Both the position numbers and the translations under genes were made by a program. From positions 1 through 34,764 of IMG/VR virus record IMGVR_UViG_3300021964_000238: a stretch of 34,764 nucleotides of DNA; one strand, written 5' to 3'. Origin of the DNA: a virus. Position 1 is the first letter of the stretch, and each line of letters begins with the position of its first letter. A model generated the notes under the pieces. The model was given only the letters and a program-made list of their open reading frames with translations, searched no databases and was not told where the DNA came from. Positions 29,049 through 34,764 of this stretch are shown here, piece after piece.

Positions 29049-29150
29049 AGTTGGGGAGGAAGGGGGGTACACAAAGAAAGGAAGGGTACCCAATACACCG
29101 CCACATCTTTTTCTCACACAAAGAAGAAGGGATTGTTAAACTTTATAAAA

Positions 29151-29167
29151 ACCCCCTTATAGGGAAA
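29151..29167 (+). promoter_or_regulatory. T7-like late promoter candidate before the large terminase gene
   Basis: ACCCCCTTATAGGGAAA. The TATAGGGA core matches the T7 promoter from -4 to +4, preceded by a C-rich recognition segment and an AT-rich stretch. It lies 23 bases before the terminase ATG and points at the rightward late genes. CCCT-TAT-AGGG also forms a small hairpin with a 3-base loop. The related sequence at 11609-11627 has the same orientation. Confidence 0.5.
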
Positions 29168-29189
29168 TTTTTAGAGGACACTAAAAATA

Positions 29190-30815
29190 ATGGATAATAG
29201 GACCAAATTGGAACTATTGAAGGAAAAAGCTAAACGAGACAAACGTCAAAAGTATATTGATGACTTCGAACTATTCGCAAAAGAACAGATTAGGATCATC
29301 ACAAAGAATGCTTCTCAAGGCTTTGTTCCTTTTGAGTTCAATGACGCTCAACGAGCAATTAATAAACAAATTGAAGAGCAACGGAAAAAGACTGGCAAGG
29401 TCAGAGCAATTGTATTGAAAGCTAGGCAACAGGGTATTTCAACCTATTGCGCTGGAAGAGTATTCTGGAAGACTTTTTATACACCTTACACAAGATCTGT
29501 CGTCATGGCGCATGACAGTGCGACATCTGACGCTCTCTTTAATATGAGTCGTAATATTATTGATAACATGGAAGAAGCTCCCACGCTTCAAAAGTCAAAC
29601 GCTAAGGAGATTTTGTTTGAACATAACAAGTCGGGCTATAGGCTATATACCGCAGGTGCGAAAGAAGCAGGACGAGGCACTACGCCAACAATCGCTCACC
29701 TTTCAGAAGTTGGTTTCTGGCAGTTTGATGAGCAGATACTCGCAGGTTTATTCCAAGGAATCAGTCAAGAAGAAGGAACAGAAGTGATACTGGAGAGTAC
29801 CGCCAATGGAGCCAGTGGAGAGTTTTACAGGCTCTACCAAGGTGCTATGAGAGGTGAAAATGAGTATATTCCAATCTTTTTACCTTGGTTTATTACCCAA
29901 GAGTATCGCAGACCTGCACCTGAAGGGTTTGAAAAGACAGAAGAAGAAGACGAACTAGTAGAAAAATATAAGTTAGATGACGATCAGTTATACTGGAGAA
30001 GGCTTAAAATAGCCGAAAGTGGTGAAAATAAGTTTAAGCAAGAGTACCCAGCTACACCAAAAGAAGCCTTTAGGGTTTCTGGTAATAGTGTATTTGATCA
30101 AGAGGCTATTGCTAACTACGAAGTACAAGCACCAAGTTATACAAGAGTGTTTGATGAGATAAGTAGTTACTTCGAAGATAATAGAGAGGGGCATCTGGAA
30201 ATATGGACACCTCCTAGTTTTTCGGAAAGATTTATAATAGGTGCTGATGTAGCACTAGGCGTAGGTCAAGACCACAGTGCAGCTGTAGTGTTTAACACAA
30301 ACAGAGAAGTATGTGCTTTGTTCAGAGACAATCATGTAGACCCAAGTATGTTTGGGGATATGTTATTCTACTTAGGTAGATACTATAATAATGCATTACT
30401 AGCAGTAGAAAGCAACAGTCTAGGTATCGCTACCCTAAACAGACTCAAACAGATGAACTATGTCAATCTATATTATCAGACTAAGTCGGCAAACCTTTCA
30501 AACGAAGAAGGTAGCAAGCCAGGTTTTAGAACTACTGTTTCTACTAAACCTATGATTATTGGCAACCTAAAACGAGCCATTGAAGACTATGATATAGATA
30601 TTAGGTCTGATATTATTCTATCAGAACTCAAGACATATGTAGCAAATGAGAACGGAGCGACTAACGCCCTTCCAGGAAACTACGATGATACTGTTATTGC
30701 ACTAGCAATTGCATTAGAAGCTTATAGAACACATCAACATAGACTAACAGATGACACTGTTTCGTGGAAAGATAAAGTTGGTCAGATTATGGAGGATAAT
30801 ACACAATGGCTGTAA
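29190..30815 (+). CDS. terL: Terminase large subunit
   Basis: 541 aa. ATPase half: variant Walker A KARQQGIST (77-85), Walker B PTIAHLSE (166-173, E173), coupling motif LESTANG (201-207). Nuclease half: GADVALG (D353), VESN (E407), GNYDD (D499/D500), the RNase-H-fold metal acids. It pumps DNA into the prohead through the portal and cuts it. AGAGGA lies about 11 bases before the ATG. It opens the rightward late block and overlaps the next gene by 10 bases. Confidence 0.96.
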   Translation: MDNRTKLELLKEKAKRDKRQKYIDDFELFAKEQIRIITKNASQGFVPFEFNDAQRAINKQIEEQRKKTGKVRAIVLKARQQGISTYCAGRVFWKTFYTPYTRSVVMAHDSATSDALFNMSRNIIDNMEEAPTLQKSNAKEILFEHNKSGYRLYTAGAKEAGRGTTPTIAHLSEVGFWQFDEQILAGLFQGISQEEGTEVILESTANGASGEFYRLYQGAMRGENEYIPIFLPWFITQEYRRPAPEGFEKTEEEDELVEKYKLDDDQLYWRRLKIAESGENKFKQEYPATPKEAFRVSGNSVFDQEAIANYEVQAPSYTRVFDEISSYFEDNREGHLEIWTPPSFSERFIIGADVALGVGQDHSAAVVFNTNREVCALFRDNHVDPSMFGDMLFYLGRYYNNALLAVESNSLGIATLNRLKQMNYVNLYYQTKSANLSNEEGSKPGFRTTVSTKPMIIGNLKRAIEDYDIDIRSDIILSELKTYVANENGATNALPGNYDDTVIALAIALEAYRTHQHRLTDDTVSWKDKVGQIMEDNTQWL

Positions 30816-31180
30816 GTAAACATCCAGGGTCAGAAAACCTTAAAAGTATTACTTCTACCGAAATGGCTAATGAGTATCGTCTTAGAGGTCTTGAGGTTAG
30901 AAGAAAGAATAAAGAAAAACGTGAGCTTGCTAAGCAAACTATTGTTGCTATGAAAGAGCTTGGTGATGAAGCCCCAGATGCTATGGCGGCTCTTAACTAT
31001 GTCTTAGTACAGGCTATGGAAGAAAACGACACTGAACAGATTGTAAAGGTTGCTTCTATACTAGCTGAATACCAAGCACCAAAGCTTTCTCGTCAAGACG
31101 TTACACAAACAAACCTTGATGCAGCAGACTTGTCAGACGAAGAATTAGAGGAAGAGCTACAAAAGCTCACTCTTCAGTAA
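30806..31180 (+). CDS. Probable terminase small subunit
   Basis: 124 aa. Basic N-terminal half, then helices, and an acidic C-terminus (ADLSDEELEEELQKL). Small terminase subunits have this arrangement: a DNA-binding basic start, an oligomerising helical centre and an acidic end that touches the large subunit. It overlaps the large terminase by 10 bases. The order, small after large, is unusual for T7-like phages, where the small subunit gene comes first. Assigned by context and composition, not by a catalytic motif. Confidence 0.5.
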   Translation: MAVSKHPGSENLKSITSTEMANEYRLRGLEVRRKNKEKRELAKQTIVAMKELGDEAPDAMAALNYVLVQAMEENDTEQIVKVASILAEYQAPKLSRQDVTQTNLDAADLSDEELEEELQKLTLQ

Positions 31181-31231
31181 AACACCCCAAAAGCGTCATT
31201 CGTGCAAAGGAAAGCTATTTGGCAGGTGTCA

Positions 31232-31390
31232 GGCCGAGGTTTAAAGGTTTGTAGGAATATCCCAAGTTGGGCCTATTGTAATTCCAGACCTCGCCCATCA
31301 AAGAATGAGAGAGGTTTGCGATAGCAAGCTATCTCACCTTATCTACCGTTGTCCTCGCCTAGTCAGGGCTGCTAGGGGTAGAGAAAGCCC
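31232..31390 (+). ncRNA. Candidate structured RNA beside the terminase genes
   Basis: The 229 bases between the small-terminase stop and the next ATG have no convincing gene, and by hand count 31201-31380 has 88 G or C in 180, well above its neighbours. Three nested domains pair without conflict. (1) 31232-31240 with 31288-31295 (one bulge), enclosing 31254-31258 with 31281-31285 and a CCCA/TGGG hairpin at 31261-31271. (2) 31306-31310 with 31332-31336, enclosing 31314-31319 with 31324-31329 around a GATA loop. (3) 31342-31347 with 31377-31382, stacked on 31358-31362 with 31372-31376. The loop GGGCT (31366-31370) can pair with AGCCC (31386-31390), a pseudoknot. It matches no class I know. Confidence 0.6.
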
Positions 31391-31409
31391 ATTACTCTAG
31401 GAGAGGAAA

Positions 31410-31604
31410 ATGAGAAAAGGACCATTGGCAAAAAAGAAAAGTACTGTAAATAGTTCAGGTAACTACACTAAGCCAGGACTTAGAAAATCTATCTATGAGC
31501 GTATTCTTGCAGGATCTAAAGGCGGTAAACCTGGACAGATCAGTGCTAGAAAAATGCAGATGGTTGCTAAAGAATACAAAGCTAAAGGTGGAGGCTACAA
31601 ATAA
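31410..31604 (+). CDS. Small basic conserved phage protein
   Basis: 64 aa, AGGAGAGG before the ATG. Lys/Arg-rich; the pattern NYTKPGLRKSIYERI then GSKGGKPGQISARKMQMVAKEYKAKGGGY is of a type I recognise from many aquatic phages near head genes, without known function. The charge suggests nucleic-acid binding. Its stop overlaps the next ATG (TAATG). The structured RNA lies directly upstream and a small CTCT/AGAG hairpin can hide its ribosome site. Confidence 0.75.
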   Translation: MRKGPLAKKKSTVNSSGNYTKPGLRKSIYERILAGSKGGKPGQISARKMQMVAKEYKAKGGGYK

Positions 31605-33127: not shown

Positions 33128-33268
33128 ATGTTACGTTATATACAACAGCCTAAAGAAGGCAAAGAGGCTAAAAAGAAGGAACGAAAGATTCCTTTGAGTC
33201 AGCCAGGAAAATATAATCAAAAGGCTATGGAGTCAGCTAAGCCTATCTACGGACAGGGGAAAATGTAA
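33128..33268 (+). CDS. 46-residue basic protein before the portal
   Basis: Begins MLRYIQQPKEGKE and continues Lys-rich with a Pro/Gly-containing end. It starts directly after the stop upstream and its stop overlaps the portal ATG (TAATG at 33266-33270). Such coupling supports expression. No family recognised. Confidence 0.6.
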   Translation: MLRYIQQPKEGKEAKKKERKIPLSQPGKYNQKAMESAKPIYGQGKM

Positions 33269-34764
33269 TGGCACATAGTGGTTATAAAGAAGCAGTAACA
33301 GATGAACAATTAGCGGCTCTTATTGAAACAGGTATTTCAAATAGTGTAGGTGATTGGCTTAACAGTAGCGATCTTACTCATGAACGCTTGAAGGCAACCT
33401 ATGAATTTGCTGGAGTACCGCATGCACATTTAGTGCCTCAAGGTGTTAGCACTATTGTTGATACGAGTACTACTGAAGTTGTAGAAGCGTACACCGCTGT
33501 ATTATCAGACTTATTTTTGTCTAACAACAAACTAGCTAGGTTTGTACCTTATGATGACAGTCCAGGCGCTTTTAAAGCTGCAAAGGACGCTTCAAGGCTA
33601 GTAAACTATTGTATATTTAAAAAGAACAAAGGATGGGAACTCCTCCAGACTTGGATGAAGTCTTCTCTTTTGTGGAAAAACGCTATTATTCGCTGGGACT
33701 ATGTCGAGGAATATGATTACGCTATTGAAGAATACGAAACAATAGATGAAGCAAAACTTGACGAGATACTTGCGGATGAAAATTATGAAATCGTCAACGA
33801 GCTAACGCTCGATACAAGTAGTGAAATGATCCAATATGTAGATGTACGTTTGCGTAAACGGATTGATAAAAGTAGAATTAGACTAGAGTGTATTCCACCT
33901 GAGTCTTTTAGAATCAGTAATGATGCCAAAGATATTGAAGATGCCTCTTATGTAGGAATCCAAATGGAAATGACTAAGTCTGACTTGCGTAAATATTACC
34001 CTGAATGGGCTGATGATATCGATAGTGATACATGGGCTCAATTAGGAGTTGATGGTAATTGGCTTGGTAATAGTCCTTACAGTGAAGAAATTGCAGCTAG
34101 AAAAGAAGTAGTAGGTCAAACTTACTGGCAAGGAATGGCTAACGAAGGTATATACCCTTTAGAAGCTAATACAGAAGTAACTGTAACAGAGTCATGGATC
34201 AGAGTAGATAGAGACGGAGATGGTATTGCTGAATTAAAGCACATCATAACAGCAGGAGATAACATTCTTTGGGAAGAAGATTGTGACATGATTCCGCTTG
34301 CCTCTATTGTACCAATTGATATTCCACACGAGTTTTATGGTTTGTCTATGGCAGACTTCACTCGGAGTAGTACTTTGGCAAGCACAGCTATTTTAAGAGG
34401 TTTTGTAGAAAATACGTACTTGACTAACTATAGTCCTAAGTTGGCAGATCCTAATGTAGTTGATTTTAGTGCGCTTCAAAACATGAAGCCAAAACAAATT
34501 ATTCCTACTAATGGTAATCCAACAGGAGCAGTGCAAGCGCTTTCTCCAGAGACTATTTCTACAGGAACAGTTCCGTTGCTTGAACACTTACAACTTATTA
34601 AGGAACAAGCAACTGGTATGTCGAAAGCCGCACAAGGTCTTAACGACACGCTTTATGTTTCAGGTAACTCTGAGCAGAAATTGAGTGCAGTTCAATCTGC
34701 AGCTCAAAAAAGAATCCAGCATATCGCGCGTAGATTTGCGGAGACTGGGTTCAAGCGGCTTATT
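33268..34764 (+). CDS. Portal protein, 3' end cut by the window
   Basis: 499 codons visible, open to the last base. Features of podovirus-type portal proteins: an N-terminal helical clip region, WIRVDRDGDGIAELKHI (a strand pair before the stem), PHEFYGLSMADFTRSSTLASTAILRGF, typical of portal stem helices, and the basic end RIQHIARRFAETGFKRL. Portals form the 12-fold ring at the DNA vertex, hold the terminase during packaging and the ejection proteins in the head. GGGG/AAAATGTA before the ATG and the TAATG overlap mark the start. Confidence 0.9.
   Translation, partial: MAHSGYKEAVTDEQLAALIETGISNSVGDWLNSSDLTHERLKATYEFAGVPHAHLVPQGVSTIVDTSTTEVVEAYTAVLSDLFLSNNKLARFVPYDDSPGAFKAAKDASRLVNYCIFKKNKGWELLQTWMKSSLLWKNAIIRWDYVEEYDYAIEEYETIDEAKLDEILADENYEIVNELTLDTSSEMIQYVDVRLRKRIDKSRIRLECIPPESFRISNDAKDIEDASYVGIQMEMTKSDLRKYYPEWADDIDSDTWAQLGVDGNWLGNSPYSEEIAARKEVVGQTYWQGMANEGIYPLEANTEVTVTESWIRVDRDGDGIAELKHIITAGDNILWEEDCDMIPLASIVPIDIPHEFYGLSMADFTRSSTLASTAILRGFVENTYLTNYSPKLADPNVVDFSALQNMKPKQIIPTNGNPTGAVQALSPETISTGTVPLLEHLQLIKEQATGMSKAAQGLNDTLYVSGNSEQKLSAVQSAAQKRIQHIARRFAETGFKRLI

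Follow-up and report, generated by a model that had tools for sequence, protein, structure and literature searches.

A 34,764-nt stretch of viral DNA from IMG/VR (hereafter the window) encodes, between its terminase and head genes, a 49-nt RNA pseudoknot that we call element B. Its existence as a real RNA structure is strongly supported by compensatory base changes in related phages. Element B is best explained as a new family of cis-encoded regulatory RNAs of marine CRP-7-like phages, with a function that we predict from sequence. To our knowledge, structured regulatory RNAs within the late operons of tailed phages have rarely been described. Element B is compact and strongly covarying, has a specific candidate base-pairing partner, is found across a marine phage group and bears on the poorly explained scarcity of terminase relative to capsid protein in phages. 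An isolate with a candidate copy exists, the Roseobacter phage CRP-7.

Fold and covariation of element B

The genes that frame element B in the window are the following.
29190 to 30815, + strand: terL, terminase large subunit (PHROG 2; CRP-7 TerL is 59.8% identical)
30806 to 31180, + strand: terS-like gene of 124 aa, from the family of the gene after or near terL in relatives
31410 to 31604, + strand: 64-aa gene 3′ of element B (PHROG 17747), with its own Shine-Dalgarno GGAGAGG
33268 to 34764, + strand: portal gene (PHROG 1216), incomplete at the window end

Small genes run from 31410 onward and the portal gene from 33268. By TerL, the nearest phage isolate is CRP-7 (59.8% identity). The 124-aa gene has no match in a PHROG search and probably is terS, a name taken from its position. 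A preliminary description had singled out 206 nt between terminase and head genes as an unexplained structured RNA with a pseudoknot. Its placement of the region, after the end of the TerS-like ORF (31180) and before the start of the 64-aa ORF (31410), is correct, as is the elevated G+C content (48% compared with 39% for the whole window, a level reached by 1.6% of the window's 206-nt stretches). It had recognised no known class, and against Rfam (4227 families) the window likewise has no match at gathering score, positions 31150 to 31420 have none at E-values up to 10 and the divergent copies described below have none at E-values up to 1. In the literature, mainly openly accessible, we found no terminase-adjacent pseudoknot RNA and no phage anti-Shine-Dalgarno kissing element; an earlier description is possible.

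Element B consists of the following parts.
31343 to 31391, + strand: element B, 49-nt RNA pseudoknot with covariation in relatives
31343 to 31347 / 31377 to 31381, + strand: P1
31358 to 31362 / 31372 to 31376, + strand: P2
31366 to 31370 / 31386 to 31390, + strand: pseudoknot helix (PK)
31348 to 31357, + strand: near-invariant internal loop GUUGUCCUCG (family consensus RUUGUCCUCR), candidate anti-Shine-Dalgarno
31391, + strand: conserved last A

The element is a hairpin with a 10-nt internal loop on its 5′ side and an apical loop that base-pairs immediately 3′ of the hairpin. Both this five-pair loop-tail pseudoknot and the hairpin that carries it, the last one in the preliminary description, are conserved: across 29 distinct copies, held at 49 alignment columns by removal of one linker base from four copies, the 15 pairs are formed in 435 of 435 cells. 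Five pairs have both sides changed (C-G/A-U, C-G/U-A and A-U/U-A, and U-A/C-G in PK), and the covariation is 0.172, compared with 0.064 after shuffling.

Divergent copies, reached through a TerS profile search and a second TerL scan, lie 3′ of terS (L392, L394, L395) or 3′ of terL (L427, L428). Their P1, P2 and PK sequences are all new yet complementary, which is also visible by eye, and their loop RUUGUCCUCR is unaltered. Among 14 representatives that include divergent copies, 208 of 210 cells are paired (99%) and covariation reaches 0.713 (0.170 when shuffled), in an alignment that carries N at missing loop positions for structural register and that tilts somewhat toward the structure. Stems without compensatory changes in homologous phages had been named in the preliminary description as grounds for rejecting it; the representatives have double changes in 11 of the 15 pairs. 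The internal loop is constant while every flanking stem varies. In a terL tree with 58 rows, at least 9 changes are required for the three-pair state label and 6 for one pseudoknot-variant state alone, hence the pair changes do not reflect a single event.

Distribution and neighbouring sequence

We compared 72 loci of TerL relatives in IMG/VR and 85 contigs from a pattern scan. Element B is present in nearly all relatives of the window's group whose contig extends far enough, and the near-complete genomes checked have one copy each; in three relatives (G007, G008, G009) it was not detected. A model, R2, was made from window-group and divergent copies and used for a wider search. It finds element B in two CRP-7-like contigs with a glutaredoxin gene after terS (G015, G016), and in CRP-7-like contigs the element stands away from the terminases, immediately 5′ of portal (L438) or of a small pre-portal gene (L439). 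A structure descriptor, for which control motifs give 2–12 distinct chance matches over 3.1 Mb, locates a copy in G014, 3′ of terL and behind a promoter-like motif, and a looser match in isolate CRP-7, immediately 5′ of portal with the loop GCUGUCCUU. In the CRP-7 copy additional bases separate P1 from the loop, and it is a less certain, candidate element B. Searching phage isolates by DNA similarity gave no copy, and the CRP-7 candidate was reached by structure only. A pattern scan of bacterial genomes returned 44 matches, which we take as chance, one of them with a chance pseudoknot-like match and none a full element B; the model search of five Rhodobacterales genomes found none.

Element B usually follows a stop codon by 0–6 nt, in the part of the late transcript that leads from terminase to head genes, and the gene directly after it is not constant among relatives. 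Because it stands before portal in CRP-7-like phages, the head-gene side is the constant neighbour, and proximity to the terminases, although usual, is not obligatory. In L428, approximately 300 nt of apparently noncoding and possibly structured sequence (1920 to 2220) lie between element B and the small pre-portal gene.

Three further features lie upstream of element B in the window.
31154 to 31168, + strand: hairpin H0, GAGCU-ACAAA-AGCUC, in the 3′ coding end of terS, its pairing kept through synonymous changes
31181 to 31342, + strand: lineage-specific insert of element A and two further hairpins, absent from most relatives
31182 to 31186 (ACACC) / 31225 to 31229 (GGTGT), + strand: pairing arms of element A (54 nt)

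In 43 of 67 distinct relatives, −1 to +6 nt separate element B from the TerS stop, and the remaining loci have varied inserts before it (element A, short hairpins, a small ORF). The region is thus modular, and as most relatives lack them, two of the three hairpin domains of the preliminary description are inserts. What stands of its structured RNA is the 49 nt of element B and not three domains as one structure; the complete 206-nt region does not fold better than shuffled sequence (z −0.28). The element A pattern ACACC..CATTCGTGCAAA..GCTA..GGTGT (31181 to 31232 in the window) also occurs after terS in L033, L024 and L010, and all of the seven viral contigs that carry it are already among the relatives of this locus. 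H0 (5 bp) is fully paired in 43 of 53 relatives, compared with 30.2 ± 1.9 (maximum 37) in 2000 synonymous-codon shuffles. Its arms vary as GAGCU/AGCUC, GAGUU/AACUC and GAACU/AGUUC, and it is disrupted in L027, L028 and a few others.

The terL leader and its match to the internal loop

The sequence just 5′ of terL holds a second conserved structure.
29150 to 29164, + strand: promoter-like AACCCCCTTATAGGG 5′ of terL, kept before terL in relatives
29167 to 29188, + strand: terL leader hairpin AUUUUUAG-AGGACA-CUAAAAAU with the terL Shine-Dalgarno in its loop; stems vary, loop constant
29174 to 29180, + strand: terL Shine-Dalgarno GAGGACA, reverse complement of UGUCCUC in element B

Similar copies of the promoter-like sequence are found in G001, G014 and the window, and within the window alone its count is not above chance. 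Its position suggests that the late transcript carries the leader hairpin at its 5′ end. A recurring promoter-like motif, CCCTTATAGG/CCCCTTATAG, is present at 29150 to 29164 and at about 11612 in the window and at several places in G014, one of them just 5′ of element B; it is perhaps a motif for a phage RNA polymerase.

Among relatives the leader often forms such a hairpin, with the stems AUUUUUAG/CUAAAAAU, UAAUAG/CUAUUA, AUUUAG/CUAAAU and AUUUGA/UCAAAU around a fixed AGGACA loop. Stems reach 6 bp or more in 18 of 30 leaders, compared with 6.2 ± 1.9 (maximum 13) when the 3′ flanks are shuffled. This hairpin could serve terL translation by itself.

By hand count, 40 of the 47 distinct terL leaders in the window's group contain GAGGAC, and 28 of these contain GAGGACA. 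GAGGACA also precedes terL in G014, L428, L394 and L395, and many relatives without element B (L402–L434) have no GAGGAC 5′ of terL. The duplex between the loop and the terL Shine-Dalgarno has an energy of −12.0 kcal/mol; for the same Shine-Dalgarno with the 16S 3′ end it is −5.8. Part of this complementarity is free, given that any CCUC loop pairs with any GAGG-type Shine-Dalgarno, and evidential weight falls only on the C and A that follow GAGGA. GAGGACA ribosome sites are found at 21 of 508 Shine-Dalgarno genes in genomes with element B and at 5 of 439 in relatives without it and controls (p = 0.005), a comparison that counts related genomes as independent, uses mechanical gene calls and has three of its five control cases in one genome without element B, G012. 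Besides terL, the genes with such sites in element B genomes include a 66–71-aa LEYDSM family, lysozyme and glutaredoxin. The LEYDSM-family gene (G001, G002, G011, G012, G014) often has a GAGGAC-type ribosome site, as terL does.

The loop is near-invariant and the terL Shine-Dalgarno mostly invariant, and one two-letter double change is in G012, in which the model finds no element B. Following TerL there (L480, minus strand, about 15030 to 14990) is a small hairpin-pseudoknot with the loop GAGUCCUC, and the terL Shine-Dalgarno GAGGACUC complements it exactly over 8 nt; in both the loop and the Shine-Dalgarno, two letters are changed. P1 is missing at this site, hence the double change is a lead only.

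The last hairpin had also been proposed to hide the next ribosome site. This does not hold across relatives, in which the loop has no more complementarity to the Shine-Dalgarno just 3′ of element B than to other Shine-Dalgarno sequences (p = 0.11). The target, if any, is therefore not the next gene.

Possible functions of element B

Translation control is the best of the roles that the preliminary description had offered, with the difference that the likely target is the terL Shine-Dalgarno at the 5′ end of the transcript and not the next ribosome site. We tentatively propose, as a plausible reading of the sequence, that the loop of element B is an anti-Shine-Dalgarno that kisses the terL hairpin and limits terminase translation. 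The exposed internal loop would contact the leader hairpin loop either in cis, across 2.1 kb of one late mRNA in the window, or in trans between transcripts, and the pairing would mask the terL Shine-Dalgarno. Terminase synthesis would then be kept below head-protein synthesis after transcription has passed element B, and other phage genes with GAGGACA sites may be members of the same regulon. We infer the loop pairing and the repression from two conserved structures and their complementarity. In support, most lineages that bear element B and have terL first on the transcript possess a terL site GAGGAC(A), often in a hairpin loop. Against it, the loop is the same where the Shine-Dalgarno is GAGGAA (L032, L097, L131) or GAGGAAC (L392), there is no clear covariation between loop and Shine-Dalgarno in the window's group, and CRP-7-like phages have element B adjoining portal but a terL without GAGGAC. 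It is possible that an intercistronic pseudoknot with a fixed anti-Shine-Dalgarno loop, kissing a hairpin-displayed terL site and perhaps serving a GAGGACA regulon, sets the terminase-to-head-protein ratio by RNA alone.

In kissing antisense RNA regulators, a loop-loop contact covers the Shine-Dalgarno. As proposed here, a C-rich exposed loop is complementary to a G-rich Shine-Dalgarno displayed by a hairpin, but the loop of element B lies inside a pseudoknot within the late mRNA of its own target. The Escherichia coli infC-rpmI-rplT operon, in which a long-range pseudoknot controls translation within the operon (bL20 operator, PMC10931766), is similar in that an operon mRNA makes a long-range contact, in our case a proposed one, that controls a gene of the same operon. 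The partner of element B would be found about 2.1 kb toward the 5′ end, where the transcript has its first gene, and as far as known no ribosomal protein takes part.

The main rival to the anti-Shine-Dalgarno reading, though in our estimate an unlikely one, is that element B acts in mRNA stability or as a nuclease roadblock: a ring-like pseudoknot would halt a 5′–3′ exonuclease (for example RNase J) or mark a processing boundary, such that head-gene mRNA outlives the terminase part. This idea draws on the topology of plant-virus xrRNA_D (dianthovirus/polerovirus), a P1-internal loop-P2 hairpin with an apical loop that pairs 3′ of P1 via a 3–4-nt linker, and with conservation both in the internal loop and in the bases that precede the pseudoknot strand; like element B, xrRNA_D can be intergenic, upstream of coding genes (PMC6299227). 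Element B has the same P1-L1-P2 arrangement with an L2 to 3′-flank pseudoknot, and all three of its helices covary. The likeness is one of topology, with element B in a phage DNA genome and a bacterial host, and its sequence (L1, L2B) has no Rfam match, in a library that possibly holds no xrRNA_D model. A roadblock would fit an element that is independent of which gene comes next, tolerates inserts on its 5′ side and in G014 sits in a leader behind a promoter-like motif. However, in several relatives an ORF started upstream runs through element B, and ribosomes would therefore unfold it there, and both the fixed loop and its match to the terL Shine-Dalgarno are left unexplained. If element B does prove to be an exonuclease block, the xrRNA idea would be extended into bacteria.

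Equally improbable, in our view, is an operator role, in which an RNA-binding protein of the phage or host would recognise element B as an autogenous operator for translation of the late or head operon. A constant single-stranded loop borne on stems that vary is characteristic of RNAs recognised by proteins, the start codons of the head operon lie 3–6 or 15–23 nt after element B in most loci, and the element is ahead of portal in L438 and, as a candidate, in CRP-7. Nevertheless, the directly downstream gene differs among relatives, and the protein partner is hypothetical. Processing into, or action as, a small trans RNA whose UGUCCUC seed targets several ribosome sites of the phage or host would account for the GAGGACA sites at further genes (LEYDSM family, lysozyme, glutaredoxin), but the window has no promoter-terminator pair that isolates element B, and we regard this role as distinctly doubtful.

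A self-cleaving ribozyme that parts terminase mRNA from head mRNA is very improbable: the compact pseudoknot, its conserved core and its position right after stop codons would suit one, but Rfam finds none, the topology is unlike that of the small ribozymes known to us, and cleavage would remove the start codon of the ORFs that cross element B (L003, L011, L013, L014, L029, L096). Less credible again is a role as packaging RNA in the terminase motor, for which the preliminary description had looked to the place beside the terminase genes. Element B often adjoins terS and terL, but it precedes portal and head genes instead in CRP-7-like phages, and many relatives without it retain both of the same terminase genes; its link to the terminase genes is not fixed, which disfavours this role. 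The phi29 pRNA, the comparison made there, is likewise a structured phage RNA, whereas element B is 49 nt inside an mRNA and has no terminase tie. The cabRNAs of staphylococcal phages are also structured RNAs from the terminase gene region; they have no mutual sequence likeness, come from coding sequence and trigger CBASS (PMC10686824), whereas element B is a conserved element with covariation.

That element B is mainly coding sequence, for the peptide YHCPHLVWAARGRKSP, can practically be dismissed: this frame is open in most copies, and in the same six relatives element B falls inside an ORF whose ATG or GTG start overlaps the TerS stop or closely follows it, but in most copies the frame has no start, several meet a stop just past P1 (GGTAGGTAA), the frame relative to TerS is inconstant, the third positions of TGT CCT are invariant and the divergent copies alter residues while every pair is kept. 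The earlier statement that no reading frame spans the region is accurate for the window, in which no gene-sized ORF crosses the gap; some relatives are open across element B, and in a few the frame is probably coding. Stop-codon readthrough or frameshifting from TerS was rejected, as the frame is not constant with respect to TerS and the majority of extensions stop immediately. In the six relatives, the ORF covering element B encodes a small basic protein of a YKSP/YKCP family. Elsewhere the genes of this family start 3–5 nt 3′ of element B, and such a shift of the start codon across an intact element argues that it acts at the RNA level and is not cut out.
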